Shown in pieces: positions 10,534 through 39,801 of a stretch of DNA of 46,323 nt. Each line of letters opens with the position of its first letter. Position 1 is the stretch's first letter. The translations under genes were made by a program, and so were the position numbers. The notes under the pieces were generated by a model. That model saw only the letters and a program-made list of their open reading frames with translations, made no database searches and was not told the origin of the DNA. Origin of the DNA: an uncultured Bacilli bacterium. GTDB taxonomy: Bacteria > Bacillota_I > Bacilli_A > RF39 > UBA660. Where the stretch lies: the NCBI GenBank assembly GCA_950097225.1, contig CATNCE010000009.1, positions 1 to 46,323 on the forward strand, given 5' to 3'.

Positions 10534-11712
10534 TTAAATATCTTTTTCGTAACTTATATCATTAATTGAGTATCTCTTCTTTTTAGCAAACAGATTAAGC
10601 AGTTTATTAGCGCCTAATACTAATAATGCCAGTAAAATAAAGTAGATAAAACCAAATGCTGTAAATTGAGGCTGACTCTTAGTTAAAAGACCAATAATTG
10701 AAACACCAGCACTCATCGATGTTACAATTGTTAAACTATTAATAGAGTTGCTAGTAACATCTTGCTTTAAACCATTAAATAATTTTTGCGCTGAACTAAC
10801 ATAATCTTTTGTCATTGACCAAATTTGTTTAATATAATCGAGTGTATCGCGTAGTGTCTCATAACGGTACCCACTTATATTCAAAAATTCTGTTAACTCG
10901 GCATCAGATTTAGCAATTTTTTCACGCGTAGATATATATGAGCCCATTTGATTTATACGCCCATTTATCAAACTTATGGTTTTAGCATACCCATCCAACT
11001 TAGCATTAAACTTAACAATATCGGCACCTTTTACTTGCGCATTATTTTTAACCTTATCAATTTTCTCCCAAATTATTCTATGAATATTTAAATAACGATG
11101 TAATTGTCCTTTAAACTCACGAATAAATACTTGTTCTTCAATGTATCTTTCTATGTTTGATAATGACTGAGTTTTATTATTTATAAAATAGTATTTATCG
11201 CCACGAACGACATCATACTTATCATTTTTAAATTCAAAATATTTTTGTTTTTCTGTTCTCGAAAGCAAATCATTTATTTGTTCTTTTGTTGCTTTATCTA
11301 CAGTAATGAAATACGGATAAATTGTTTCAATATTGGCGAGCTCTTTCGGAATAGGCGCTCCCAAACTAAACAGATATGAAAGAGCAGGGGACAACTTATT
11401 TTCATAATAGTCAGTAACATGCTCTATATCAGCAAATAATGTGTCCTCACTAACTTTTTTATTATTAAGTGTTATTAAACCATCCTCAAATATTTTTACC
11501 TTGATATCTAAAGCTGTAGTAAATTCAATAAATTCTTCTCCTGCAACTCCATAGTCAATTTTTCCAATTTTCAACTCTTTATGAAAGCTATTTAATTTTT
11601 CTTGATCTAGTTCTAATTTCGACTTGGCGTCTCTTAAAAAATCATAAATTTCTGATAATTGTAGCATAGTTCTTTGAAACCAACCACCTACATAAATATT
11701 ACTTATTTTCAT
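10534..11712 (-). CDS. Unknown protein with two C-terminal membrane segments
   Basis: A 392-residue protein I cannot assign. It begins 'MKISNIYVGGWFQRTMLQLSEIYDFL', a conserved-looking opening. The middle is mostly charged helices (about 185-310) that could form coiled coils. Two hydrophobic segments lie near 323-345 and 347-368, and a basic C-terminal tail ends the protein, so it is probably anchored with most of its mass in the cytoplasm. It lies 12 bp downstream of the GNAT gene (11725) and is likely co-transcribed with it. Confidence 0.7.
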   Translation of the reverse strand: MKISNIYVGGWFQRTMLQLSEIYDFLRDAKSKLELDQEKLNSFHKELKIGKIDYGVAGEEFIEFTTALDIKVKIFEDGLITLNNKKVSEDTLFADIEHVTDYYENKLSPALSYLFSLGAPIPKELANIETIYPYFITVDKATKEQINDLLSRTEKQKYFEFKNDKYDVVRGDKYYFINNKTQSLSNIERYIEEQVFIREFKGQLHRYLNIHRIIWEKIDKVKNNAQVKGADIVKFNAKLDGYAKTISLINGRINQMGSYISTREKIAKSDAELTEFLNISGYRYETLRDTLDYIKQIWSMTKDYVSSAQKLFNGLKQDVTSNSINSLTIVTSMSAGVSIIGLLTKSQPQFTAFGFIYFILLALLVLGANKLLNLFAKKKRYSINDISYEKDI

Positions 11713-17032: not shown

Positions 17033-20000
17033 TTATTTAAATCTTTTTATAACATAGGCACCTAATGCTAATAAACTTAGTGTTATCGTGGTTACTACTA
17101 ATATTACTTTATTTATTTTTGTATCTTTTTCAGCATTTTCTTCCAAATTATTATTTTCTACTTTATTTGGATTGCTAGTATTTGGCTTTTGTCCTTCTTT
17201 ATCTGGCTCATTATTGTCTATCTTTTCTGTTGTTGTATTATCTTGATCATTGTCGTTATTAGTGTTCTCACCATTATCATTATTTATATTACCACTATTA
17301 TAATCACTATTACCATTATTACTATTATTTACATTATCTCCAGGCTTAACTGTGGTACCAGGCTTACTATTACCAGGAATGCTTGGTTTATTTGGGATAT
17401 CGGGTTTACTATCATTAAGATTATCTGGAGTTTCAGGCTTATTTTCCTCTTCTTTGATTTCTTCGTAAAATGAATCTACCTTAGCAATCAATTTTCCGAC
17501 ATTTCCTAATGAATCATAGAACTCTATTTCATAATTTCCATTTTTTGTATATTCGTAAATCCCATTTCCATCTTTAAATATTATTTCTTTGCTTGGATTT
17601 ATTACTGATACAATGACTTTGTCTTCGTGTATTTCATACTTTAACTCTGCTGTTGGAGCCACCTTATCGATCCAATTAACACTTGCAGATATGCTTCCAG
17701 TGTTTCCAGCTGCATCTTGGAATTCAAATGTAAACTCACCATTTTCGGTAAATACATAACTTGTTTTTCCGTCGTTGTTTCTTACAATTACATTTTCTTC
17801 ATCAAATGATATACTCGCCGTTACATTTTGATTGGTTAATGATTTTATATCATATTCTATTGTTGCCATTGGAGCTCTTGTATCGATCCAATCAACGACA
17901 GCAGTTGCTGTTCCTTTATTTCCAGCTGTGTCCACAAACTCGAATGTAAACTCACCATTTGAAAGGAATTCATAGGTAAATGGGTTTACATTTGTAATAT
18001 AATTTCCATTAGTATCCCAAACATCTCCATTTTCATCCGCTTTTAAGCCAGGAATCATTATTCCATCAATATTATAAATATTTCCATCCTCATCAACAGT
18101 AAAGTCTCCATTATTTGTTACAGAAACTTTTTCGTTTGCTTTTAAGATAGCAGTTACAGAACGATTAGTTGCTGAATTAGGAGTATATTCAAATGTAGCA
18201 GTAGGGGCTACCTTATCAATCCAATCAACTTTAGCTACTGCTGATCCTTCAGAATTCGTTTCTTTATCAACAAATCTAAACGTAAATTCACCATTTTCGG
18301 TAAACGTGTGTGTATCTCCACCTTCACTTAATATCTCATAGTTAGCTGAGCTAATATTTAACAATCTTGCCACTACGTCTTTATTAGTTGGATCAGTAGT
18401 ACTATATGCTATTCCAGCTGTTGGTCTTGGATTTTTTGTTACATCTTGAAAGATATTAAATGCTCTAGCAGCAAACCAATTTCCATTAGTTCTATCCGCT
18501 ACTATTTTTACATATCTTATCTCTTTTGGATTATCTATTTCAAATTTCTGAGTAAGATTAATAGCTTGTTCAATAGTATTTGCTTGTGAAGAATAAGTTA
18601 TACCTCTCCTTTGTGATAATATTTCCCAATTTTCACCATCCACACTTCCCCAAATAGTTCCATCATTTATTCTACCATTTCCACCATCTGCTGGGACATA
18701 TTCTACCGCTGAAACATATCTCGGTTTATCTAATTCTATTGTTATAAATCTTTCTGTATCGCTTCCATCCCATGCACTATGCCATCTAGTATTATAATTT
18801 CCATCAATTGCAAATATAGCTGCTCCGCCATTGTTTGTTGCTTCCGTTGATACTGATTTTAAGGATAAATGTGATACAGGTACATATTTTCTTGTATCAG
18901 GTTGATTGTCTGGAGTAAAACTATATGTCATAGACTCGCTTGGTAGTTGTGTTTCGGTAGCTCCTCTTCTAACATGTAAAGTTTTATTTCCTGTATTATC
19001 TGGAGAAGCTGTCCTGTATGACGTCCAAGGATCACTTTCATTATTACGCCACTCATAAGTTAAATCAACACCTACAACTCTATTCTCTAAATCATTAGCA
19101 AATAAATTATTATTTAAAGACCCCTCGGTAATATCTATAGTGTATCTATAGTCAGTTAATCCCATGAACTTAAATATTATGTCATTATCAGCAGTGATTC
19201 TAGCTATTTCTTCATTGGTTAACTTAAACGAATCATCATTTATAAATTCTGTAAAAGTTGTTCCTCCATCTAGACTATATGCAAAAGCCAATTGGTATAA
19301 TGGGTTTTTAACAATTTTCCCAGCGTTTTCTCCATCAAATGAGAATGTCATAGGATCTGGTTGAGCTCTGTTTAATAGTTGCCTTGCATGAGTTCGAACG
19401 GCGTCCCCATGGATTGTTTCATTTGCTGTTGCTTTTGTTGCTTTTTCTAATGCTGCTTCTTCTAATCTATCTATGTGTAACTTTTCACTACCATCTAAAT
19501 AAGGTCTTATAACATTTAGTAAGTCAAACATCGCAACTGGATGATAAGTATATGCTTCAATTATTTTATTTGCTAGAGCATACCAATCACTAGAAGTTAT
19601 TGTGCCTCCGTCATTTTTAACACTCATCTTTTTATAAAGATTTATTATATAATCATAAGTATCTAAATTTATATTGTTAACGTCTAAAGATTTAAAATAT
19701 GTTTCTAGTTTTTTGTTATCATCAGCATAAGAATTAGCTGTTAAATTTAAATATAACGATTTTTTATAATCTTCATATCTATTTAAGTTCTCTTGCCCTA
19801 AATACAAATATCCAGTACTTGACGCAACTTTAGAACCACTAATGTTTTTATCAGCAAAATATTTATTATTCCAATTAAATATATAACGAAAAGGATTTGA
19901 GCCGCCCCAAGTACTTCCAGCACCGCTCCAATTACCATATCTTGGTGACCAATACCCATTTCCATTAGCATCTTCATAATATTGAATATATAACTCATGT

Positions 20001-21517
20001 CCTACTTGATAAGCTCCAGTAGCAGGAACCCCATTAACTCGATACATACTTTGTCCAACTCGAGAAGCATTCCAACAAATACCACCATTAGCAAATACCA
20101 TCCAATATCTAGGAATCTTAGATCCATTTATTAAACCATATGGAACGCCATATTTACTTAAATAAAACTGGTTGTCATATTTTTCTCTGTTCTCTTCAGA
20201 ATAATATTTATCTTGAGTGTAATTAGGAGATACATATCCCATCATATAAAAACTTACACTTTGTTTTTCATATGTAAAGCCATTAAGCCACACAAGATCC
20301 CCGTTACTTGTTCCATCTTGCATTACCATACGCATTAATTCTACATGATAATCTTTAAACCAATTATTATCGATAAATTCACCTTGTAAATCATTGGTTT
20401 TAACTATTTTTAATTTTTTATTATCAAATAAGTCTTTCATTATTTCAAAGCGTTCTAAATAATCGTATGTAGGAGAGGGAAAGCCAAATGAAAGGGGAGA
20501 TATAATTTTATCAGTGGAATATCCAGCAGCTAATGCTATTGCCATTTTTTCATAAACATAGCCATTTTCAGCATTTAATTCGTTTTGATATCTATGATAA
20601 ATATCAGAAATAACAGTTAAAAAATTTGTAATATTTGAAATTTCTCCAACTTCAATAACTTCTTCTATTATCCTATTATTACTTAAAATCCAATCTAATG
20701 TTTCTGAAATCTCTGGATTTAGATCAGTAAGATATTGGATATTCCAATAACCTAATTTTTTTACTAATTCTCTTTCTAGAATAAGTCTATAATTGTTATT
20801 GTAATTGTCTTCAGAATTATTAGTACCCAAAATATTATCATAATAATCTAATTTTTGAATTTTTGTATAATTTCCTGTATCACTCAATTGAAAGTCTTTT
20901 GCAACTAAGCGAGCGTCTGCTATAGTACCATGGTCAGCAGCATTTGACCCGTTTGGATCAACATAAATGCAAAGATACTTATATTCTGCAACATCTAAAT
21001 CAACCTCGAGAGCCTCGCTTACACCTGTCAGGACATCTGTTTTATCTATTAGGTTATCCCAAGTACTTCCGTCTTTAGACGCTGTAATTTTAAACCAGAT
21101 GCTTCCATTCGTTCCTCTTGCTGCATCAACCCCAAGTTTAGCAACAAATCTTGGAAATTGTGTTGAATATTCGGATATATCAAAAGTCACTTGGCCTTTT
21201 GCATGAACTCCAAGACCTTTCGCAAATAATCTTTTCTCTCCGTTGATTATAAGACTTAGAACGCCTCCAGCTTGGTTTTTATCCTTTTGGATTTCATGAC
21301 CGCTCCATCCATTATAAGACCAATTGTTCTCTGTAATATAATTTAGATCAGATAAATATAGGTAGTTTTTTATTGAATCTGTATTTACCGCTAATTTTTT
21401 GATTTCTATTTCATTCGTTGTTTTTTGATATGTATTTTGGGGATAAAATACGCCAGCTACTAGAGCAACACTAGCCACCCCAATTAATAAATAACCATAT
21501 TTTTTTCTATTATACAT
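17033..21517 (-). CDS. Giant multidomain cell-surface protein
   Basis: A 1494-residue surface protein. Order: N-terminal signal/anchor (7-26); NPCBM/NEW2 carbohydrate-binding-like domain (about 55-207, with 'GLGVHAKGQVTFDIS' and 'FVAKLGVDA'); a helical region; a transglutaminase-like segment with 'GGICWNASRVGQSMYRVNGVPA' (Cys481) and 'GHELYIQY' (His507), which suggests a Cys-His catalytic pair; F5/8 type C discoidin domain (about 878-1026, 'FAIDGNYNTRWHSAW'); four Ig-like repeats (about 1030-1352) built on 'NGEFTFEFVD' and 'VDWIDKVAPTA'; an Asn/Asp/Pro-rich stalk (1353-1465); and a C-terminal membrane helix with basic end (1470-1494). There is no LPxTG. It probably binds and processes host or food glycoproteins. 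It sits alone in accessory-looking DNA. Confidence 0.9.
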   Translation of the reverse strand: MYNRKKYGYLLIGVASVALVAGVFYPQNTYQKTTNEIEIKKLAVNTDSIKNYLYLSDLNYITENNWSYNGWSGHEIQKDKNQAGGVLSLIINGEKRLFAKGLGVHAKGQVTFDISEYSTQFPRFVAKLGVDAARGTNGSIWFKITASKDGSTWDNLIDKTDVLTGVSEALEVDLDVAEYKYLCIYVDPNGSNAADHGTIADARLVAKDFQLSDTGNYTKIQKLDYYDNILGTNNSEDNYNNNYRLILERELVKKLGYWNIQYLTDLNPEISETLDWILSNNRIIEEVIEVGEISNITNFLTVISDIYHRYQNELNAENGYVYEKMAIALAAGYSTDKIISPLSFGFPSPTYDYLERFEIMKDLFDNKKLKIVKTNDLQGEFIDNNWFKDYHVELMRMVMQDGTSNGDLVWLNGFTYEKQSVSFYMMGYVSPNYTQDKYYSEENREKYDNQFYLSKYGVPYGLINGSKIPRYWMVFANGGICWNASRVGQSMYRVNGVPATGAYQVGHELYIQYYEDANGNGYWSPRYGNWSGAGSTWGGSNPFRYIFNWNNKYFADKNISGSKVASSTGYLYLGQENLNRYEDYKKSLYLNLTANSYADDNKKLETYFKSLDVNNINLDTYDYIINLYKKMSVKNDGGTITSSDWYALANKIIEAYTYHPVAMFDLLNVIRPYLDGSEKLHIDRLEEAALEKATKATANETIHGDAVRTHARQLLNRAQPDPMTFSFDGENAGKIVKNPLYQLAFAYSLDGGTTFTEFINDDSFKLTNEEIARITADNDIIFKFMGLTDYRYTIDITEGSLNNNLFANDLENRVVGVDLTYEWRNNESDPWTSYRTASPDNTGNKTLHVRRGATETQLPSESMTYSFTPDNQPDTRKYVPVSHLSLKSVSTEATNNGGAAIFAIDGNYNTRWHSAWDGSDTERFITIELDKPRYVSAVEYVPADGGNGRINDGTIWGSVDGENWEILSQRRGITYSSQANTIEQAINLTQKFEIDNPKEIRYVKIVADRTNGNWFAARAFNIFQDVTKNPRPTAGIAYSTTDPTNKDVVARLLNISSANYEILSEGGDTHTFTENGEFTFRFVDKETNSEGSAVAKVDWIDKVAPTATFEYTPNSATNRSVTAILKANEKVSVTNNGDFTVDEDGNIYNIDGIMIPGLKADENGDVWDTNGNYITNVNPFTYEFLSNGEFTFEFVDTAGNKGTATAVVDWIDTRAPMATIEYDIKSLTNQNVTASISFDEENVIVRNNDGKTSYVFTENGEFTFEFQDAAGNTGSISASVNWIDKVAPTAELKYEIHEDKVIVSVINPSKEIIFKDGNGIYEYTKNGNYEIEFYDSLGNVGKLIAKVDSFYEEIKEEENKPETPDNLNDSKPDIPNKPSIPGNSKPGTTVKPGDNVNNSNNGNSDYNSGNINNDNGENTNNDNDQDNTTTEKIDNNEPDKEGQKPNTSNPNKVENNNLEENAEKDTKINKVILVVTTITLSLLALGAYVIKRFK

Positions 21518-24029: not shown

Positions 24030-24428
24030 ATGTATCACGCATTAAGACTAACTAAAGGAGATGACTTAAAAGCATCAATCGTCAACTACGCCCAGGAACA
24101 TAATATTGAAGCGGGTTGTATTTTATCTGGAGTAGGGTGTTTAAGCCATGTCAACATTCGTTTAGCTAAAGCCATTAATTTTCTTGAATCAAATCAAGAT
24201 TATGAAATTGTAAGTATGACAGGAACTATATCTAAAGATGGAGTGCATATTCACATCGCATTATCGGACGAACAAGGAGCAGTAATTGGAGGACACTTAT
24301 CGGGAAAATGTATCATTAATACTACCTGTGAACTAGTTATCTTGGAACTACCTAATTATAGTTTTACTCGCGAAATGGACGATGGAACTGGATTTAAAGA
24401 ATTAGTTATAAAAGAAAAAGATGTATAA
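24030..24428 (+). CDS. PPC/DUF296 domain protein
   Basis: A 132-residue stand-alone PPC (PCC, DUF296) domain: 'HALRLTKGDDLKASIVNYAQEHNIEAGCILSGVGCLSHVNIRLA', 'SMTGTISKDGVHIHIALSDEQGAVIGGHLSGKCIINTTCELVI'. The family forms trimers; in plants it accompanies AT-hooks, but in bacteria its role is unknown. The conserved His cluster 'HIHIA...GGHL' could bind a metal. Its start follows the previous stop by one base, and its end overlaps the radical SAM start by 8 bp. Confidence 0.9.
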   Translation: MYHALRLTKGDDLKASIVNYAQEHNIEAGCILSGVGCLSHVNIRLAKAINFLESNQDYEIVSMTGTISKDGVHIHIALSDEQGAVIGGHLSGKCIINTTCELVILELPNYSFTREMDDGTGFKELVIKEKDV

Positions 24429-25218
24429 AAAAGTATACGTTGAGATTACCAATAGTTGCAATCTTTCTTGTGAATTTTGCACATTAAAAAAGAAAAATGA
24501 TTTTATGAAAATTGATAAATTCGAGGAAATTCTTGCTAAATTAAAAGGGCATACAGAATATCTTTATTTTCATGTTTTAGGCGAACCACTATTGCATCCT
24601 AATATTAACGAATTAATTGACCTTGCATCGAATAATTATAAAGTAAATATAACGACTAATGGTTATCTCATAAAACGCATTATTAATAATAAAAATATTC
24701 GTCAATTAAATATATCACTCCATAGCTTCAATATTAAAGCAAACTTATCTATAGATGAATATTTATCTAATATATTTGAGGCAGTAGACACTTTAAAGAC
24801 AACAACTTATATATCATTTAGAATATGGGCTAATTCCCCTCACACTAAATATTTTATTTCTAAAATAAATGAGCATTATCAAAGTGAGATTGATTACCAA
24901 AATATAAAGAACAATTCTACTATATGCGATCATGTTTTCATAAGTACTCACGAATTATTTACTTGGCCTGATTTAACCAATGACACATGCAATAAAAAGG
25001 GCAAATGTTACGCACTAAGAGATCATATTGGCATATTAGTAAATGGTTGTGTTATTCCTTGCTGTTTAGATGGAAGTGGGCTTATAAACCTTGGAAATAT
25101 CTATGAATCAACATTAGAAGAAATAATTTCCTCGCCTCGTTATCAACAGATGCTTAATGGATTTAAAAACAAAGAACGCACCGAACCTCTATGTCAGCAT
25201 TGCGATTTTATCAAATAA
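24421..25218 (+). CDS. Radical SAM enzyme with SPASM-like C-terminus
   Basis: A 265-residue radical SAM protein. The [4Fe-4S]-SAM motif is CNLSCEFC (C13, C17, C20), followed by 'HVLGEPLLHPNI' (the GGEP-type motif, here LGEP) and 'ITTNGYLI'. The C-terminal part has 'CYALRDHIGILVNGCVIPCCLDG', 'LGNIYESTLEEIISSPRYQQM' and 'EPLCQHCDF', the SPASM/twitch pattern of auxiliary cluster ligands. Such enzymes modify peptides, cofactors or sugars. No precursor-peptide gene is obvious, though small genes precede it. It overlaps the DUF296 gene and ends in a strong terminator. Confidence 0.9.
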   Translation: MYKKVYVEITNSCNLSCEFCTLKKKNDFMKIDKFEEILAKLKGHTEYLYFHVLGEPLLHPNINELIDLASNNYKVNITTNGYLIKRIINNKNIRQLNISLHSFNIKANLSIDEYLSNIFEAVDTLKTTTYISFRIWANSPHTKYFISKINEHYQSEIDYQNIKNNSTICDHVFISTHELFTWPDLTNDTCNKKGKCYALRDHIGILVNGCVIPCCLDGSGLINLGNIYESTLEEIISSPRYQQMLNGFKNKERTEPLCQHCDFIK

Positions 25219-29586: not shown

Positions 29587-29616
29587 AAAAACATCAGTTT
29601 ATCTGATGCTTTTTTA
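29584..29616. terminator. Bidirectional terminator
   Basis: CATCAG (29592-29597) / CTGATG (29603-29608) around TTTAT, A7 on the left and T6 on the right. It serves both the ABC gene (+) and the HTH gene ending at 29614 (-). Confidence 0.8.
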
Positions 29617-29859
29617 TGCTAAAGCTTTTTCATTCTTAGTATCTTGAAACGTTGTCATGTTATCTGTAAGTCCTAAAATATAGTCTGCTGACACATTTAA
29701 ATACTTGCATATCTTAATTAAATACGTAACTGGCATAATGTTAACACCTTTTTCGTATCTAGCATATTGTTGTTGCCTTATTCCTAAATAAGCAGCAAGT
29801 TCCCTTTGTGAAATATTCTTACAGTCTCTAACCCATTTCAATCTATCTGTATAATACAT
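29614..29859 (-). CDS. XRE-family HTH transcriptional regulator
   Basis: An 81-residue regulator that is almost only a HTH domain: 'RLKWVRDCKNISQRELAAYLGIRQQQYARYEKGVNIMPVTYLIKICKYLNVSADYILGLTD'. Helix-turn-helix 'SQRELAAYLGIRQQQYARYE', closing motif 'NVSADYILGL'. The start at 29859 is chosen because GGGTGA lies five bases upstream; longer starts to 29985 would place that site and a possible promoter inside the gene. It is divergent from the gene cluster beginning at 30055 and could regulate it. Confidence 0.82.
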   Translation of the reverse strand: MYYTDRLKWVRDCKNISQRELAAYLGIRQQQYARYEKGVNIMPVTYLIKICKYLNVSADYILGLTDNMTTFQDTKNEKALA

Positions 29860-30054: not shown

Positions 30055-31737
30055 ATGAGCAAGAATGAACTATATGAGCCGTTTTTATCAAAAGAAAAAT
30101 TTTACACTTTAGATGAACTTGCCAATATTTATGGTGAATACATAAGACGCAATTGTGCAATTTCTCTAGTATTAAAAGATGAAGAAACATTCACTAAATA
30201 CAAAAATGAAGATTTAATAGAAATCTCTTCTGGAGAAGGAGTAAAATCAGTAAGTAGTAAATTAATCCAAGACATTCTCTCTGATTCAGGAATGTATAAA
30301 TACCTTCAAACAAATCTTGATAATCGTCTAGGCATTGCCGCTCGCTTTGATTATATTTTTGATTCTGATACCATAGTTTCAATTAAACTGACTAGATATG
30401 AAATAATGGAGGCATTTACTAAGATTAGTGATAAATTAAATCAAAAAGAGAAGATGCGATTAGCTGTCATAAAGAATTCTTTAGATCTATTTTCTTGTGA
30501 ACAACGTTATAGTAACTATACGCACACTAGCTATATCGATGATGAGAAAATAGAAATACCAGCTTCCATACTTTTACAAATTCTTACTATGGATGAGCAA
30601 TCATTTGCCTCATTCATTAATAACCCTGTTAGTTTTGGTTACAAAAGAAAACATTTGGCTTATGTCCTTATCGATTTTATTGAAAAAGAACGCATTCGTG
30701 CTAAATATGTTTTTCCAGAAAAAGTTTATATGCGCTATAAAAGTTTAGCTAACTATCAATTAATAGATTTTGAAGCATTAAACAAAAACTCTATTCGTAA
30801 CGATTACACAGAAGAGGGAAAAAGTATAGTTGATGTCTTAACTATCAATGATGAACTTCTAGAATATCTTGATAAAGAAATAGATAAAACATACTCTACA
30901 TTAGAAAAATCATTATATTATTATATTAAATTATGTGAGTTATTCACAAGTGATCCAAACTTTTATACTCAAGATTACGCTAGCTCAAGGTCAGATGTTT
31001 CAACTAAAGGACCAAATGATGCTCAAATCACCCCTAAAGACTTTATTTTTCTTTATGCTAAGTTACTCGATCATTTAGGAGTTGTCTATTCTTTTGATCC
31101 TCTGTTTGATCGTCGTGAAGGATATCTAAGTTTCCGTTGCGGTGAATTTTTAATGGAACTGACTTCTTTTGACGCAATTGCTAAAAATGATTTGGCCAAT
31201 ATTAAAGTTAATGATGAAATAGCTAATCTAACATGCATTAATAAAAATGCGGCAACTAAGCAAAAGTTTTCTGAGAAAATAAACCAAATATATGCTAGTA
31301 TAAAGACCAAGCACGAAAATGCCAAACGCTTTAGTGAAACTTTAGCAGAGTATCAAAGTAATCTATCTAAACGCCCAATCCCTCTTAAAGAAAAAGTATT
31401 TACTCTTTTAAAAGAGATTTGTCGTAGTAATCTAACGGGTGTAGATATTTTTGCTTATGAGAAGAAAGTGTTTTCAGCTATATTTGCAAATGATAAGCGT
31501 ATCAAAATAACATTTATGTATATCGAAAATGAATCAGGACTTCATCCTGTTACAGTTATTTCAATTAAGGATACAGGGTATCAATATTTCGTCGTCGATC
31601 AAACAAGTCCTGAAATCATTAAACCAATAAGTTATCAGAGCATGCAAAAAATGGTTGAAAGAAATGATATTCACTATATCGGGGACCAAACAATACTAGG
31701 AATTACGGACATAAAAGAAAGGGAGAAAACACTATGA
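30055..31737 (+). CDS. Large cytosolic protein with degenerate transglutaminase-like region
   Basis: A 560-residue protein with no signal or membrane segment. Residues about 280-400 follow the layout of bacterial transglutaminase-like proteins: 'LYYYIKLCELF', then 'ITPKDFIFLYAKLLDHLGVVY', where the active enzymes have Cys in the 'xxCxxFxxLYxxLLxxLGI' strand, then 'GYLSFRCGEFLMELTSFDA' and 'NDLANIKVNDEIANLTCINKN'. The Cys, His and Asp expected at the active site are not at those places (Pro/Lys, Gly and Ser stand there), so it is probably a catalytically dead relative. The C-terminal 110 residues are a separate unknown domain. First gene of a five-gene unit; it overlaps the next by 4 bp. Confidence 0.6.
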   Translation: MSKNELYEPFLSKEKFYTLDELANIYGEYIRRNCAISLVLKDEETFTKYKNEDLIEISSGEGVKSVSSKLIQDILSDSGMYKYLQTNLDNRLGIAARFDYIFDSDTIVSIKLTRYEIMEAFTKISDKLNQKEKMRLAVIKNSLDLFSCEQRYSNYTHTSYIDDEKIEIPASILLQILTMDEQSFASFINNPVSFGYKRKHLAYVLIDFIEKERIRAKYVFPEKVYMRYKSLANYQLIDFEALNKNSIRNDYTEEGKSIVDVLTINDELLEYLDKEIDKTYSTLEKSLYYYIKLCELFTSDPNFYTQDYASSRSDVSTKGPNDAQITPKDFIFLYAKLLDHLGVVYSFDPLFDRREGYLSFRCGEFLMELTSFDAIAKNDLANIKVNDEIANLTCINKNAATKQKFSEKINQIYASIKTKHENAKRFSETLAEYQSNLSKRPIPLKEKVFTLLKEICRSNLTGVDIFAYEKKVFSAIFANDKRIKITFMYIENESGLHPVTVISIKDTGYQYFVVDQTSPEIIKPISYQSMQKMVERNDIHYIGDQTILGITDIKEREKTL

Positions 31738-31946
31738 TTGATAGCTTACGCGAACAATGTTCATTACTTATAAAAAGTGATTCACAAAAATATTCTAAAA
31801 TAGCCACTTTCTTAGAGAATGATAATTGTTTTTTTGAAATAGATATGGAAACCTCTTATGCTATACTTTCTGATTTACTCGTTAAAGAAGAAGATATTGC
31901 TAGAGTTTATCAAGCTTTAATTCGCGTTGAGAATTTTAGGCCTTGA
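31734..31946 (+). CDS. Small unknown protein of the FtsK-like cluster
   Basis: A 70-residue acidic helical protein ('MIDSLREQCSLLIKSDSQKYSKI'). It overlaps the preceding gene by 4 bp and stops with TGA just before the AAAGGAGAG of the next gene. No signal or membrane segment and no family recognised. Its position suggests a fixed partner of the neighbouring proteins. Confidence 0.6.
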   Translation: MIDSLREQCSLLIKSDSQKYSKIATFLENDNCFFEIDMETSYAILSDLLVKEEDIARVYQALIRVENFRP

Positions 31947-31960
31947 AAGGAGAGTTAAAA

Positions 31961-32323
31961 ATGAAATATCCGAGTATTATACGTGATACTATTGATTTTA
32001 TAAGTGATACAGAGGTATGTAATATCGGCTACAGTGAAGGAACTATTGATAAAAATCGTCCCTATCGCCTTGAACTTTGGTCATCATACGGAATAACTAA
32101 TGCTACAATTTTTATCTCTATTATTGATTTAGAAAATAAAAGTGAAGATGATATCAAACGTATTTTAATCGATAATAACATTATCGAAATAATAAAAGAC
32201 GATATTTACATCACGGAAGTCGAAGACACGGCAGACAATAGTTTTTTATCAATAAACGTTCCATTAGAAGGAAAAGACGTAATAATTAATAAACTATTAG
32301 TAAAGACTACATATTTTGATTAA
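31961..32323 (+). CDS. Unknown protein of the FtsK-like cluster
   Basis: A 120-residue protein: 'MKYPSIIRDTIDFISDTEVCNIGYSEGTIDKNRPYRLELW', then alternating strands and helices, ending 'SFLSINVPLEGKDVIINKLLVKTTYFD'. The predicted pattern is a small alpha/beta fold. The ATG at 31961 is used because AAAGGAGAG lies at the right distance; the in-frame TTG at 31943 lies before that site. No family is recognised. It ends 10 bp before the ATPase gene. Confidence 0.6.
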   Translation: MKYPSIIRDTIDFISDTEVCNIGYSEGTIDKNRPYRLELWSSYGITNATIFISIIDLENKSEDDIKRILIDNNIIEIIKDDIYITEVEDTADNSFLSINVPLEGKDVIINKLLVKTTYFD

Positions 32324-32333
32324 AGGAGACACC

Positions 32334-33086
32334 ATGGAATTTAGAGAAATACTTAAAAACAATAAAGAGAAAAACATTATTACTTTAGGAGAAAATCCGC
32401 TAGGATTCCTTAATGTTAATATTAAGGAAAAGCCTTCTATTATTATAACTGGCGAAACTGGTTCTGGAAAATCGATTTTATTAGATCAAATAATTTTAGA
32501 ACTCATTACTAAATATACTTCATTAGAGTTATCTTTAGTTTTAATAGATACATCAGGAGTAGAGTTGAATTATTACGAGAATACCAATTATACAAAGTAT
32601 GCAGCTATCAACAATTTAGATCGTTCTATCGTGGCTTTATCTCGTGTCTTAAAGGAAATTGAGGATAGAAAAAAACTAATTCATGATAAAGGTGTAACTA
32701 CAATTGATGAGTTTAATAAAATTGCTAGTGAACAGATTCCCATGTTAGTACTTGCTATAGATGATGATAAACTTCTTCTAAGAGAGCCCGATGTCGAGAA
32801 AATGTTATCAGGAATCATTAGTCAATTGGCTGGCTTGAATATCGTTCTTATCTTAGTTACAAGTGATGTCCACAATGAATTTTTTGAAAGTGATTTAAAT
32901 ACCCTAGCTAGTTTATTAATCTCTTTTGATTATACTAATGCTCTAGAAAGCAAGAAAAGTAACATTAAAAATGCTAATAATTTAGAGATAGGAGCATTTT
33001 ATGCTAAGACTAAAGGGTATCAGACTAAATATTTTAATTTTGATTTTGATGATGCTGTGATAAAAGAAGTAATGGATCATGTGTAA
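32334..33086 (+). CDS. Stand-alone FtsK/SpoIIIE-like ATPase
   Basis: A 250-residue protein that is only an FtsK/HerA-type motor domain. Walker A is GETGSGKS (residues 40-47); 'LSLVLIDTSGVELNYYENTNYTKYAA' matches the FtsK 'lIDpKgvEL..Y..iPHL' block; 'ALSRVLKEIEDRKKLIHDKGVTTIDEFNK' matches 'W.v.EMerRy.lf...gvrni..yN'; Walker B is 'MLVLAIDDDK', with Asp where FtsK has the catalytic Glu; 'NIVLILVTSDV' matches 'giHlilaTQrP'. Absent are the membrane part, the linker and the gamma DNA-reading domain, and the TQRPS sensor is changed. It may pump DNA or peptides, or act as a regulatory ATPase of this cluster. The ATG at 32334 follows AAAGGAGAC. Confidence 0.8.
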   Translation: MEFREILKNNKEKNIITLGENPLGFLNVNIKEKPSIIITGETGSGKSILLDQIILELITKYTSLELSLVLIDTSGVELNYYENTNYTKYAAINNLDRSIVALSRVLKEIEDRKKLIHDKGVTTIDEFNKIASEQIPMLVLAIDDDKLLLREPDVEKMLSGIISQLAGLNIVLILVTSDVHNEFFESDLNTLASLLISFDYTNALESKKSNIKNANNLEIGAFYAKTKGYQTKYFNFDFDDAVIKEVMDHV

Positions 33087-33486
33087 TTTGGATTGTATAA
33101 CTAACGAAACGGAGTTTTTACTTCCTTATTATAAGCAATTTATTCGTCATTTAAAAGGCGATACCATTCTTTTACTTGGAGATATTAATGATAAATGTTT
33201 ATGCAAACTAGAAAAATCTAAGATCAAAATTAGCCAGAATGATGGTATTATCGTAAATGGTATAATCATCCATAATGCCTTAACTAGTAATAACATCAAA
33301 GAGATTTCCAAAATCATTAAGGAGCGTTTAGGTAATGGCGGAATTATTTTAATTATTAACAACAATAATTATTTCGAAAATGAAGAGATAAAGTATCACT
33401 TTAAAAGTGATTTTGATATACTTGAAGAATTTATCGGCGATGAAAAATGGAATTTTATTTTATATTCAAAAAAGACTACTAAATAG
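33079..33486 (+). CDS. Rossmann-like protein of the FtsK-like cluster
   Basis: A 135-residue protein overlapping the ATPase gene by 8 bp. 'GDTILLLGDINDKCL', 'DGIIVNGIIIHN', 'IIKERLGNGGIILIINNNNYF', and a C-terminal 'WNFILYSKK' follow the strand order of a small SAM-methyltransferase core, but the glycine loop (DxGxGxG) is not intact. It may be a degenerate methyltransferase or a structural Rossmann protein. The last gene of the first unit; it ends in a terminator that abuts the next promoter. Confidence 0.55.
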   Translation: MCNLDCITNETEFLLPYYKQFIRHLKGDTILLLGDINDKCLCKLEKSKIKISQNDGIIVNGIIIHNALTSNNIKEISKIIKERLGNGGIILIINNNNYFENEEIKYHFKSDFDILEEFIGDEKWNFILYSKKTTK

Positions 33487-33497
33487 TAGTTTTTTTT
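33475..33497 (+). terminator. Terminator after the first cluster unit
   Basis: ACTACT (33475-33480) / AGTAGT (33485-33490) around AAAT, then T7. The stem covers the last codons and stop of the preceding gene, and the final T is the first base of the next TGCTATAAT promoter. Confidence 0.75.
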
Positions 33498-33505
33498 GCT
33501 ATAAT
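33497..33505 (+). promoter_or_regulatory. Extended -10 promoter of the 33534-35544 unit
   Basis: TGCTATAAT, fused to the T run of the preceding terminator, 28 nt before the ATG at 33534. GAGGAGG is the ribosome-binding site. Confidence 0.7.
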
Positions 33506-33533
33506 AAAAAATGTAAAGTAGAGGAGGAATGTT

Positions 33534-35117
33534 ATGGAACCTATTGACATTATAAATGAAGTGAAAAAAATTCTTCCATCTAAATATCAAAATGCCACGA
33601 TTACCGTTGGTGAGACAGATATCCCTTTCTACTCCTTTTTAGAACAAAATTTTATTAATTTTATTAAACCAGAAGCAAATCCAACCATTTTAGTCAGTTA
33701 TATTCAAAGCAAACTAAGTAACTTAATAGAATTTGATAATAAATTTTTAGTTGCCATTGAGAATTTTATTAATTCTGCTCCTCTTTATAAAGATACCATA
33801 CAATTAAGCGAGAGTGAAATTATATCCGCTCGTACTTATTTAAGCGAATATTGTATTAAGCATGGTAATCCCGATGGAACAATTAATTATGCTGGGAAAA
33901 CTACGAATATTGAAGAGCTATATCTTAAGCTTTTAGGTAATGAGTATAAGGCTCCAACTTTAGAAGACAAAGCAGAATTGTGTATAGATATGACTCGCTA
34001 CATTGATTTAGAGATTTTAAATTCCATTGTTGATGGCTATAAAGATATAACTGTTTATGATTATATCTGTCAAGTGTTACCAACTAAAATGTGTTCTATA
34101 AGTGAGGTAATGGTTAGAGATACCAAAATGCCACTTGAAGGCGTCGTTGCCGAAATTGTTAATCATCAGCGAAGTCTACTAGAAAAAGCATGCGAAAATG
34201 AAAGATTAGCTCGCGAAGAAGAATACAATAAAACAAGTGATAATCCAGGCTTAGTAAGCGAGATAAAAGTTTTCTTTGAAGGAAATAATTTAGAAGTTAC
34301 AGCAGAAATTCCAATTGTTACTTCAAGTTTATTAACTGAAGAAGAGAAAATTTCTTTACTAAAAAACTATGAAAAAAGGAGCTCTATAACTGAAGAAGAT
34401 CACTATCTTTCTGAATTAAACTATATAAAAAATGCCATTGACAATACTACTTCTGATCATAATTTAGACTCTAAAGAGGAATTTTATCGCAGTATACTAG
34501 GGGAGACTGACTTTCAAAAAGCATCAGAACAAGTTCGTGCAGTTATTGAATCTATTGAAGAATTAATAATAGTTAAGCGTAACCACCTTATTAAGGTTAC
34601 TAATAATCAAGAAGAATACACCGATGTTTTGTTCAGCGAAATAAATCGTATGAATGATGAGTTAGACGGATTTCAAACTTTAGATCAACACAGCGTATTA
34701 TATGGCAAAATTCATGAGCGCTACCAAGAATTTATTGCTAAATGTATAAATGATGTTCAATTGAAAAATGCTTTTCATAATCTATTTAAAAATATTGCTG
34801 AAAAGCGTTTAATTTTGGAAGCAACAATTGGGTATCAGTCTCCTGAGGTTGAAAGAGCTAAAGTTGACATTGAGACGGCTATTAGTGAAATAAAACAAGA
34901 TATATTGACTATTGAACACGATGCTAATAATTTAGGTAACTTAGCGGGAACAGCTATCCGTCTTAACTTAAACATTAAAAGCGCTCGTGACAAGGTTGAA
35001 GCTGCTTGTCAAAATAAATTATTAACAGAAGATGATCGTGAGTACTATAATAATCGATTAAACGTTTATTCTATCGCTCTTGAAAGCGAAAAGAAAATTG
35101 GGTATGGACTAAGGTGA
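33534..35117 (+). CDS. Large helical cytosolic protein of the FtsK-like cluster
   Basis: A 527-residue acidic protein with no signal or membrane segment. Mostly helical; the region from about 320 to 520 is rich in heptad-like Glu/Ile/Leu and could form long coiled coils ('ASEQVRAVIESIEELIIVKRNHLIKV', 'VERAKVDIETAISEIKQDI'). No motif or family is recognised. Its TGA stop lies inside the AGGTGA ribosome-binding site of the next gene, so the pair is tightly coupled. It is separated from the ATPase unit only by a compact terminator and promoter. Confidence 0.6.
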   Translation: MEPIDIINEVKKILPSKYQNATITVGETDIPFYSFLEQNFINFIKPEANPTILVSYIQSKLSNLIEFDNKFLVAIENFINSAPLYKDTIQLSESEIISARTYLSEYCIKHGNPDGTINYAGKTTNIEELYLKLLGNEYKAPTLEDKAELCIDMTRYIDLEILNSIVDGYKDITVYDYICQVLPTKMCSISEVMVRDTKMPLEGVVAEIVNHQRSLLEKACENERLAREEEYNKTSDNPGLVSEIKVFFEGNNLEVTAEIPIVTSSLLTEEEKISLLKNYEKRSSITEEDHYLSELNYIKNAIDNTTSDHNLDSKEEFYRSILGETDFQKASEQVRAVIESIEELIIVKRNHLIKVTNNQEEYTDVLFSEINRMNDELDGFQTLDQHSVLYGKIHERYQEFIAKCINDVQLKNAFHNLFKNIAEKRLILEATIGYQSPEVERAKVDIETAISEIKQDILTIEHDANNLGNLAGTAIRLNLNIKSARDKVEAACQNKLLTEDDREYYNNRLNVYSIALESEKKIGYGLR

Positions 35118-35121
35118 TAAA

Positions 35122-35544
35122 ATGGGTGATGAATATAATGAATTATACACGATGCTATCAACAGATCGTGAAGAAGTTCGCAAGATAAAAGATGCTTATC
35201 ATCAAGACATAAGTTTACTTATTGGAAAAATACGCAGTTATCATATCAACAATGTCGATATATCTGCGGATTATGATCTTGAAAATAACTTTGATAAATT
35301 CAAAGTGGATGACTCTTATTTGCGTTATAAATTAAATAATGATGCTATTGAATACAAGATAACCATATTACAAGGTTATCTTCAAGATTTATTTATCGAA
35401 AAAAAGTTTAATAATTTTCGTCGTGAAAAAGAAGAGAAATTAACTAAAAATGAATATCTTGAATACACACATAATCCAAGTGTTAAAAGTGATAAAATTA
35501 GTCAATGGTATCAAGAATTTATACAAAATAAAACTAGCCTTTAA
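35122..35544 (+). CDS. Charged helical protein of the FtsK-like cluster
   Basis: A 140-residue very charged helical protein ('MGDEYNELYTMLSTDREEVRKIKDAY', 'FIEKKFNNFRREKEEKLTKNEYLEY'). No signal or membrane segment and no family recognised. It starts four bases after the preceding stop and ends convergently with the GH25 gene, the two stop codons overlapping at 35541-35544. Confidence 0.6.
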   Translation: MGDEYNELYTMLSTDREEVRKIKDAYHQDISLLIGKIRSYHINNVDISADYDLENNFDKFKVDDSYLRYKLNNDAIEYKITILQGYLQDLFIEKKFNNFRREKEEKLTKNEYLEYTHNPSVKSDKISQWYQEFIQNKTSL

Positions 35545-39356: not shown

Positions 39357-39383
39357 AAGGATGAGAACCTAGCTCTCATCCTT
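39357..39383. terminator. Hairpin between ABC-F and Coat F genes
   Basis: A perfect 10-bp stem AAGGATGAGA / TCTCATCCTT with a 7-nt loop; the minus-strand stop codon (39369-39371) lies in the loop. The following T runs are weak in both directions, more convincing for the minus strand (TTTT). Confidence 0.7.
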
Positions 39384-39620
39384 AATTAATTTATTATAAA
39401 TTTTCTTTATTTCTGATTCTTTTACATTTGCAACATCATACATGCCATCGGACTTCATAGCTTGATAAATTTCATCTTGCATGGCAAGTGTATTTTTTAA
39501 ACCATCTTGATATAACTTTCGTACATCAGGATTACTAGATTCAACAGTTGCATCTAAATAAAGAGAGTTTAAAGATTTTGTTAGAGTTAAAACGCACTCC
39601 AATATTGTCTTATTATTCAT
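39369..39620 (-). CDS. Coat F (CotF) domain protein
   Basis: An 83-residue helical protein with the spore-coat CotF core: 'TLTKSLNSLYLDATVESSNPDVRKLYQDGLKNTLAMQDEIYQAMKSDGMYDVANV' (consensus 'slyxxaxlEstnpxvRxxfxxxlxxxlxmqdeixxyMxxkGwYxv'). It overlaps the upstream gene by 8 bp. In spore formers such proteins coat the spore, but many members occur in vegetative cells, and no coat cluster is seen here. Confidence 0.8.
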   Translation of the reverse strand: MNNKTILECVLTLTKSLNSLYLDATVESSNPDVRKLYQDGLKNTLAMQDEIYQAMKSDGMYDVANVKESEIKKIYNKLIKDES

Positions 39621-39801
39621 CTATATCACCTAAAAATTTTTCCATTTTCTTCATCATCGTATCATGTTCTTCAATTTGTTTATCAAACATTGAAACATAA
39701 TCTTCATCAGTAACTAATTCCATACTATTATAAAGAATTTCAACGATTAATTTCTCATGATTGTAAACATCTTCAAAATAATTCAATTCTTTCTGAGTCA
39801 T
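39613..39801 (-). CDS. Small Coat F-like companion protein
   Basis: A 62-residue helical protein: 'KELNYFEDVYNHEKLIVEILYNSMELVTDEDYVSMFDKQIEEHDTMMKKMEKFL'. The pattern of a helical pair with a His in 'EEH' resembles the short N-terminal partner of Coat F proteins in clostridia. It overlaps the Coat F gene, and together they look like the two halves of a Coat F fold. An AGGTAAATT-like site lies upstream. Confidence 0.65.
   Translation of the reverse strand: MTQKELNYFEDVYNHEKLIVEILYNSMELVTDEDYVSMFDKQIEEHDTMMKKMEKFLGDIDE

Follow-up and report, generated by a model that had tools for sequence, protein, structure and literature searches.

Seven open reading frames, termed A to G, at positions 30055–35544 of a 46,323-nucleotide stretch from an uncultured Bacilli bacterium (the window) form a module that is almost certainly real and conserved. 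Its source genome (G000; 1.61 Mb in 58 contigs, 92% complete) has the window as contig 9; the other G and L numbers used below denote genomes and loci. The module is grouped about D, a stand-alone FtsK/HerA-like ATP-binding protein that forms its own clade, and includes A, a protein with a probable transglutaminase/papain-like fold whose catalytic triad is lost. Rather than being indivisible, the module consists of a core, D-(E)-F-G, and a second block, A-B-C. Tentatively favored is a reading in which they encode a lineage-specific cytoplasmic complex, where an ATP-gated D scaffold and captured pseudoenzymes would serve envelope or surface assembly.

D (positions 32334–33086; ATG at 32334, alternative TTG at 32316) has 250 residues and a single RecA-like core. 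It matches PF01580 (FtsK_SpoIIIE) with an E-value of 1.9e-19 and 70.5 bits versus a Pfam gathering cut-off of 24, and scores 35.6 bits against the FtsK equivalog NF007615, where the cut-off is 1566. It has no membrane or gamma domain. In searches of Pfam, NCBIfam, PHROGs and PADLOC, D alone is matched strongly and no convincing family was found for A, B, C, E, F or G. This agrees with the first-pass annotation of the window, which saw a clear relation only for D and no match of the whole to a known system.

As a single sequence, D has EssC as its best NCBIfam match (7.7e-18, aligned to the D2 domain). A 12-sequence profile of D compared with solved structures gives the conjugation coupling protein 6o1w (3e-19, aligned over the full-length core), FtsK (2.7e-18) and EccC (1.1e-15), and bit scores are 78–86 for full FtsK versus about 22–51 for EssC D2. 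A tree of 42 domains separates the D clade (97/95) from FtsK, from both EssC domains (D1 and D2) and from two coupling-like proteins, without resolving the sister of that clade.

D shares with FtsK/SpoIIIE and with coupling proteins of the 6o1w type the RecA-like core, a Walker A motif of the form GxTGSGKS and an ‘IDxxxxEL.Y’ strand. Walker A (GETGSGKS in the window) is intact in all 17 D proteins found, and D likely binds ATP. Walker B is DD in 17 of 17 (IDD in the window). FtsK has DE there, and so do three solitary relatives that also stand alone; the change of the Walker B Glu to Asp, pointed out previously for the window alone, is a conserved trait of the whole clade. The ‘ATQRP’ sensor segment of FtsK is replaced in D. 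Unlike FtsK and the coupling proteins, D also lacks an all-alpha domain and has no DNA-processing genes nearby; relaxase and mating-pair genes were not matched among the cluster proteins or the scanned neighbors. Solitary FtsK-like proteins of ~280–290 aa with the canonical DE Walker B are present in other genera (L200:7437-8312, L201:3721-4560 and L202:3388-4263), in unrelated contexts with no F, G, A or C alongside. These represent a wider family of free FtsK cores.

A (positions 30055–31737) is a 560 aa protein. Its AlphaFold 2 (AF2) model, made from an alignment of 38 homologs, has a predicted local distance difference test value (pLDDT) of 86.6 and a predicted template modeling score (pTM) of 0.82. 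A Foldseek search of the PDB with this model gives LapG as the top match, a weak one (probability 0.94, E-value 0.18, TM score to the target 0.39), followed by other weak matches to GtgE, YopQ and vasohibin, all of which are papain/transglutaminase-like; the fold assignment is to be read with E-values above 0.1 for the best PDB matches. Relatives of A outside the cluster conserve three residues: Cys where a helix begins, His on the strand after it and Asp on the strand after that. The same order along helix and strands is found in the C-terminal half of A, as in LapG and the papain-fold enzymes, and agrees with a papain/transglutaminase-like fold. In the A of the window these three positions are Pro327, Glu355 and Thr370. 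The window's A differs from the LapG group: it has none of the three catalytic residues, its N-terminal half is large and it lacks an export signal. In addition, no LapD-like c-di-GMP receptor was recognized among the cluster genes.

The A tree comprises 50 sequences, 13 of them cluster copies and 37 others. The full Cys-His-Asp triad is present in 37/37 sequences outside the cluster versus 0/13 within it, and the 13 cluster copies are a single clade (100/100), with 1 change versus 11.6 in shuffles. At the level of sequence comparison, the tree shows A to be descended from a Cys-His-Asp transglutaminase/papain-like family, with a secondary loss of the triad that is unique to the cluster clade. 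The first-pass annotation had already proposed a transglutaminase-like fold without a triad, and both the model and the triad columns support this. In G422 and G419 the Cys and Asp of A are kept and the His is gone, which suggests a stepwise decay.

B (positions 31734–31946) is a small protein of 70 aa and is the constant partner of A. Many relatives have the A-B pair alone, with the triad intact. The distribution of the triad in the A tree suggests that A-B probably was first an active two-gene unit that was later captured and disarmed in the cluster. The neighbors of stand-alone A-B pairs, compared by cluster size and sequence starts, are mixed and show no recurring partner. A second A-B pair with an intact Cys-His-Asp triad is present in the genome of the window itself (contig 23, L168:6363-8061), where it adjoins a uracil-DNA-glycosylase-like gene. 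Two very long open frames, of 5105 and 2422 aa, also weakly resemble the transglutaminase-like part of A, at contig 12:4881-5273 of G194 and contig 17:5209-5715 of G391, respectively.

The clustering is not a chance one: other genomes repeat the order A-B-C-D-(E)-F-G. A first search for relatives with A yielded ten genomes. A search for the EssC family returned stand-alone D-sized open reading frames in nearly every member of the genus, and relatives of the L030 genome added G418, G419, G422, G423 and G414, so that 17 genomes, from the window's genus and its near relatives, have a stand-alone D. F-G follows D in 14 of the 17, C is upstream in 12 and a cluster-borne A is present in 13. The order A B C D F G is seen in G006, G004, G422 and G419; A C D F G in L030/G413, a genome from sheep rumen; A B C, transmembrane proteins, D F G in G073, G418 and G423; D-(E)-F-G in G001, G002, G005 and G007; and C-D-F-G at a contig end in G008. 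In G206, G299 and G414, D is followed by short proteins that were not recognized as F; for those in G206 and G299, profile comparison gave no support for homology to F. F always adjoins G where both occur, and E is limited to five genomes (G000, G001, G002, G005 and G007).

Among 386 sampled genomes of the family, strong D matches are confined to the window's genus and near-relative lineages. Nearly all G and C matches also fall within D-bearing lineages, and C is almost exclusive to genomes with D. A scan of genome contigs with F alone gave no matches.

Downstream of the module the neighbors vary little: a GH25 lipoprotein in convergent orientation, then genes for a CpXC and an ABC-F protein. 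Upstream, a DUF3267 protein and an ABC transporter are common to the window, G006, G001 and G004. These shared neighbors on both sides indicate a fixed chromosomal site and not an island. In the sampled viral contigs there are no relatives of A or G, and for D there is one distant coupling-like protein; on plasmids the best D matches are FtsK-domain proteins of only 27–28% identity. A phage or plasmid origin was rejected on these grounds. A divergent helix-turn-helix gene (positions 29614–29859) had been suggested as a controller of the cluster; it is not conserved beside A in the relatives and is the only weak point of the first-pass description.

Several other loci are of note. A protein with a Coat F domain and its small partner open reading frame (window positions 39369–39801, – strand) keep their place in relatives. 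In two genomes only, G004 (L018:3970-9532) and G007 (L025:1782-7446), a set of genes encoding TelA, AAA_5, DUF7192 and a 389/416-aa protein is directly upstream of A. A 392-aa protein without a family (window positions 10534–11712, – strand) is 85% identical to the product of the gene directly downstream of G in G006 (L017:13151-14380); this gene is likely mobile or recently transferred, since the identity is far above the 42–66% of the large cluster orthologs. At positions 24030–25218 a radical S-adenosylmethionine (SAM)/SPASM protein (24421–25218) directly follows a 132-aa gene, with other small genes nearby, possibly a peptide-modification locus resembling those for ribosomally synthesized and post-translationally modified peptides.

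Six genomes (G001, G002, G003, G073, G418 and G423) have, in the slot between C and D, a single-pass protein that contains a Thr-rich stretch and has a hydropathy peak of 2.6–3.7. The position varies: in G002 the protein is upstream of D, and in G001 and G003 it follows C, the contig ending without reaching D. Other small membrane or exported proteins come after the slot protein in G001, G003 and G073, and G001 and G003 additionally have a giant surface protein with List_Bact repeats after it. These large open reading frames in G001 and G003 had been considered as EssC by their size and turned out to be the List_Bact-repeat surface proteins. A surface-type protein of 1494 aa with NPCBM, F5/8 type C and Ig-like domains is also encoded in the window, at positions 17033–21517 (– strand).

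E (positions 33079–33486, 135 aa) is optional in the module and is methyltransferase-like by profile, in agreement with its earlier description as Rossmann-like: one of five aligned members matches Methyltransf_23 at 8.5e-5, and the best PDB match of the E profile is MJ0882 (0.0035). The window's own E has no Pfam methyltransferase match. Compared with the class I SAM methyltransferases, to which it has this weak likeness, E is shorter and the glycine-rich SAM motif is not recognizable in the alignment. C (positions 31961–32323, ~120 aa; ATG at 31961, alternative TTG at 31943) evolves slowly, and its AF2 model is of low confidence (pLDDT 62). A likeness of C to type III chaperones was dismissed, the Foldseek matches being non-significant with chance-level scores. 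F (positions 33534–35117) is a fast-evolving 527 aa protein without a known family; it has a weak CARF match in PADLOC 2.0 (0.0037). Because of similar-looking strand-hairpin-helix motifs, the profiles of F and A, and those of C and F, were compared, and no relation was found. G (positions 35122–35544, 140 aa), also without a known family, is the most conserved gene of the cluster.

All seven genes are on the + strand, head-to-tail, at the positions first annotated. A to E overlap or nearly touch and F and G are 4 bases apart; a 47-base gap separates E from F. The two units once called back-to-back are so only in the sense of being consecutive. The reported lack of membrane segments is confirmed by hydropathy: the maximum 19-residue mean is ≤1.12 for six of the proteins and 2.09 for D, where the peak is attributed to a strand buried in the ATPase core.

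In the comparison of the window with G006, for A, B, C, D, F and G, the nonsynonymous rate (dN) is below the synonymous rate (dS) by the NG86 (Nei and Gojobori) method, and third codon positions change most; dS is near saturation in these gene comparisons. For E, compared with G005, the dN/dS values of 0.75/1.04 give a weak signal of dN < dS, and third positions again change most. Amino acid identities between the window and G006 are 42% for A, 53% for B, 54% for F, 66% for D, 84% for C and 89% for G. Compared with the adjoining GH25 gene (63%), G and C are more constrained than their surroundings, and A and F less.

The EssC match of single D might suggest that D is a soluble offshoot or accessory of a type VIIb secretion system, i.e. 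an EssC D2-like receptor working with a membrane EssC. The catalytic motifs are altered in both D and EssC D2, and EssC is encoded in the window's genome: contig 27 (L027:7456-13242) has a type VIIb locus with a 1552-aa EssC, an 84-aa EsaB-like protein, two small proteins of WXG100-like size and large open reading frames downstream. However, INDEPENDENCE from the type VII secretion system (T7SS) is seen in G002 (95% complete), G006 (95%) and G008 (87%), where D-F-G is present and EssC is undetected, and this already largely refutes the T7SS reading. D is unlike EssC/EccC in standing alone, without FHA, transmembrane, D1 or D3 parts; the cluster has only this single domain and no membrane EssC with tandem FtsK domains. 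No gene for WXG100, LXG, EssA, EssB, EsaA or EsaB was recognized in it with Pfam and NCBIfam. With the D clade separate from EssC D1 and D2 and the family profile favoring FtsK and coupling proteins, a T7SS accessory was rejected and is now very improbable. Both refuting outcomes named in the first-pass annotation are contradicted: the genes do occur together in relatives, and D is not beside a type VII or conjugation system, EssC being on another contig or undetected and no conjugation genes being matched. The same profile and bit scores speak for D as a DNA-directed motor or clamp of the FtsK/HerA/coupling-protein kind, acting in segregation, repair or processing with F-G as clamp or loader, and in G005 the module adjoins rpsF-ssb-rpsR. 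This is unlikely, if less so than the other alternatives, as D has no DNA-reading gamma domain, membrane or all-alpha domain, its catalytic Glu and ‘ATQRP’ are replaced, a separate full-length FtsK is present in nearly every genome checked, and the cluster proteins gave no match to a relaxase or nuclease.

A conflict module, for defense or stress response, with D as an ATP-binding switch, pseudoenzymes as sensors and the fast-evolving A and F as recognition parts, would account for the divergence of A and F versus the conservation of C and G. The TelA/AAA_5/DUF7192 set of G004 and G007 and weak PADLOC matches of D to SspH and mad8 point the same way. These matches, however, are at the level expected for any FtsK-like domain, no effector is recognizable, and PADLOC 2.0 found no full component set of a catalogued defense system. 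The fixed site with the same downstream neighbors in almost every genus member differs from patchy defense islands, and the viral contigs hold little that is related; for the first of these reasons defense is not favored, and a conflict role is judged rather improbable. The early suggestion of a secretion, DNA-transport or defense module thus stands for secretion or transport as possibilities, not for defense. A further alternative is that A-B-C and D-E-F-G are two unrelated conserved operons merely side by side in a syntenic region. D-E-F-G occurs without adjoining A-C in G005 and G002, and in G001 and G003 surface genes or the end of a contig come between A-C and D. But C is almost restricted to genomes with D, the triad loss in A is found exactly in the copies linked to C/D, and B-C and C-D, which overlap or adjoin in the window, are close together in G422 and G419; a chance adjacency has a low probability.

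In the favored reading, that of a cytoplasmic complex serving the envelope, D would form an ATP-binding ring, as FtsK and EccC do, and this ring may act as an ATP-gated receptor or scaffold and not as a processive DNA pump. In EccC/EssC, ATPase domains that are degenerate and have roles other than pumping have been described (PMC11154593, PMC9436818). F and G would be the constant adaptors of D; the dead A, together with B and C, would provide binding subunits, as would the methyltransferase-like E. The complex may control the recruitment or assembly of envelope and surface proteins at the inner face of the membrane, possibly by docking on the short cytoplasmic tails of the slot membrane proteins where these are present. 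An envelope role is preferred mainly because membrane and surface proteins occupy the C-D slot in several genomes, which is circumstantial.

Several observations weigh against this picture. In roughly half of the genomes with the cluster, among them that of the window, the C-D slot lacks an envelope protein, and a profile search found no homolog of the slot protein in G000 or G006; the envelope link may therefore be local hitch-hiking. The model of C is unreliable, and F and G have no recognizable relatives or known fold in profile and library searches. The Walker B form hhhhD[E/D] is accepted in the EssC literature (PMC9436818) and the DD of D still fits it, so that hydrolysis by D is uncertain. 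A stronger form of the proposal is doubtful: that uncultured gut Bacilli possess an undescribed, T7SS-independent ATP-dependent apparatus for envelope assembly or export, consisting of a soluble D ring, F/G adaptors and a captured, dead A, which would handle dedicated single-pass and giant surface proteins.

The novelty lies in the gene set as a system, as its parts belong to known folds; a small literature search gave no evident description of the set. The persistence of D where EssC is undetected is a caution against labeling stand-alone FtsK-like genes as EssC fragments. The defined gene set, with a D-F-G core and optional parts, makes the question testable even without a mechanism. If the favored reading is true, the module would represent an ATPase-centered machine outside the tested catalogued secretion, conjugation, segregation and defense systems, and A would be a clean case of an enzyme family whose capture and disarming gave rise to a structural or regulatory subunit.

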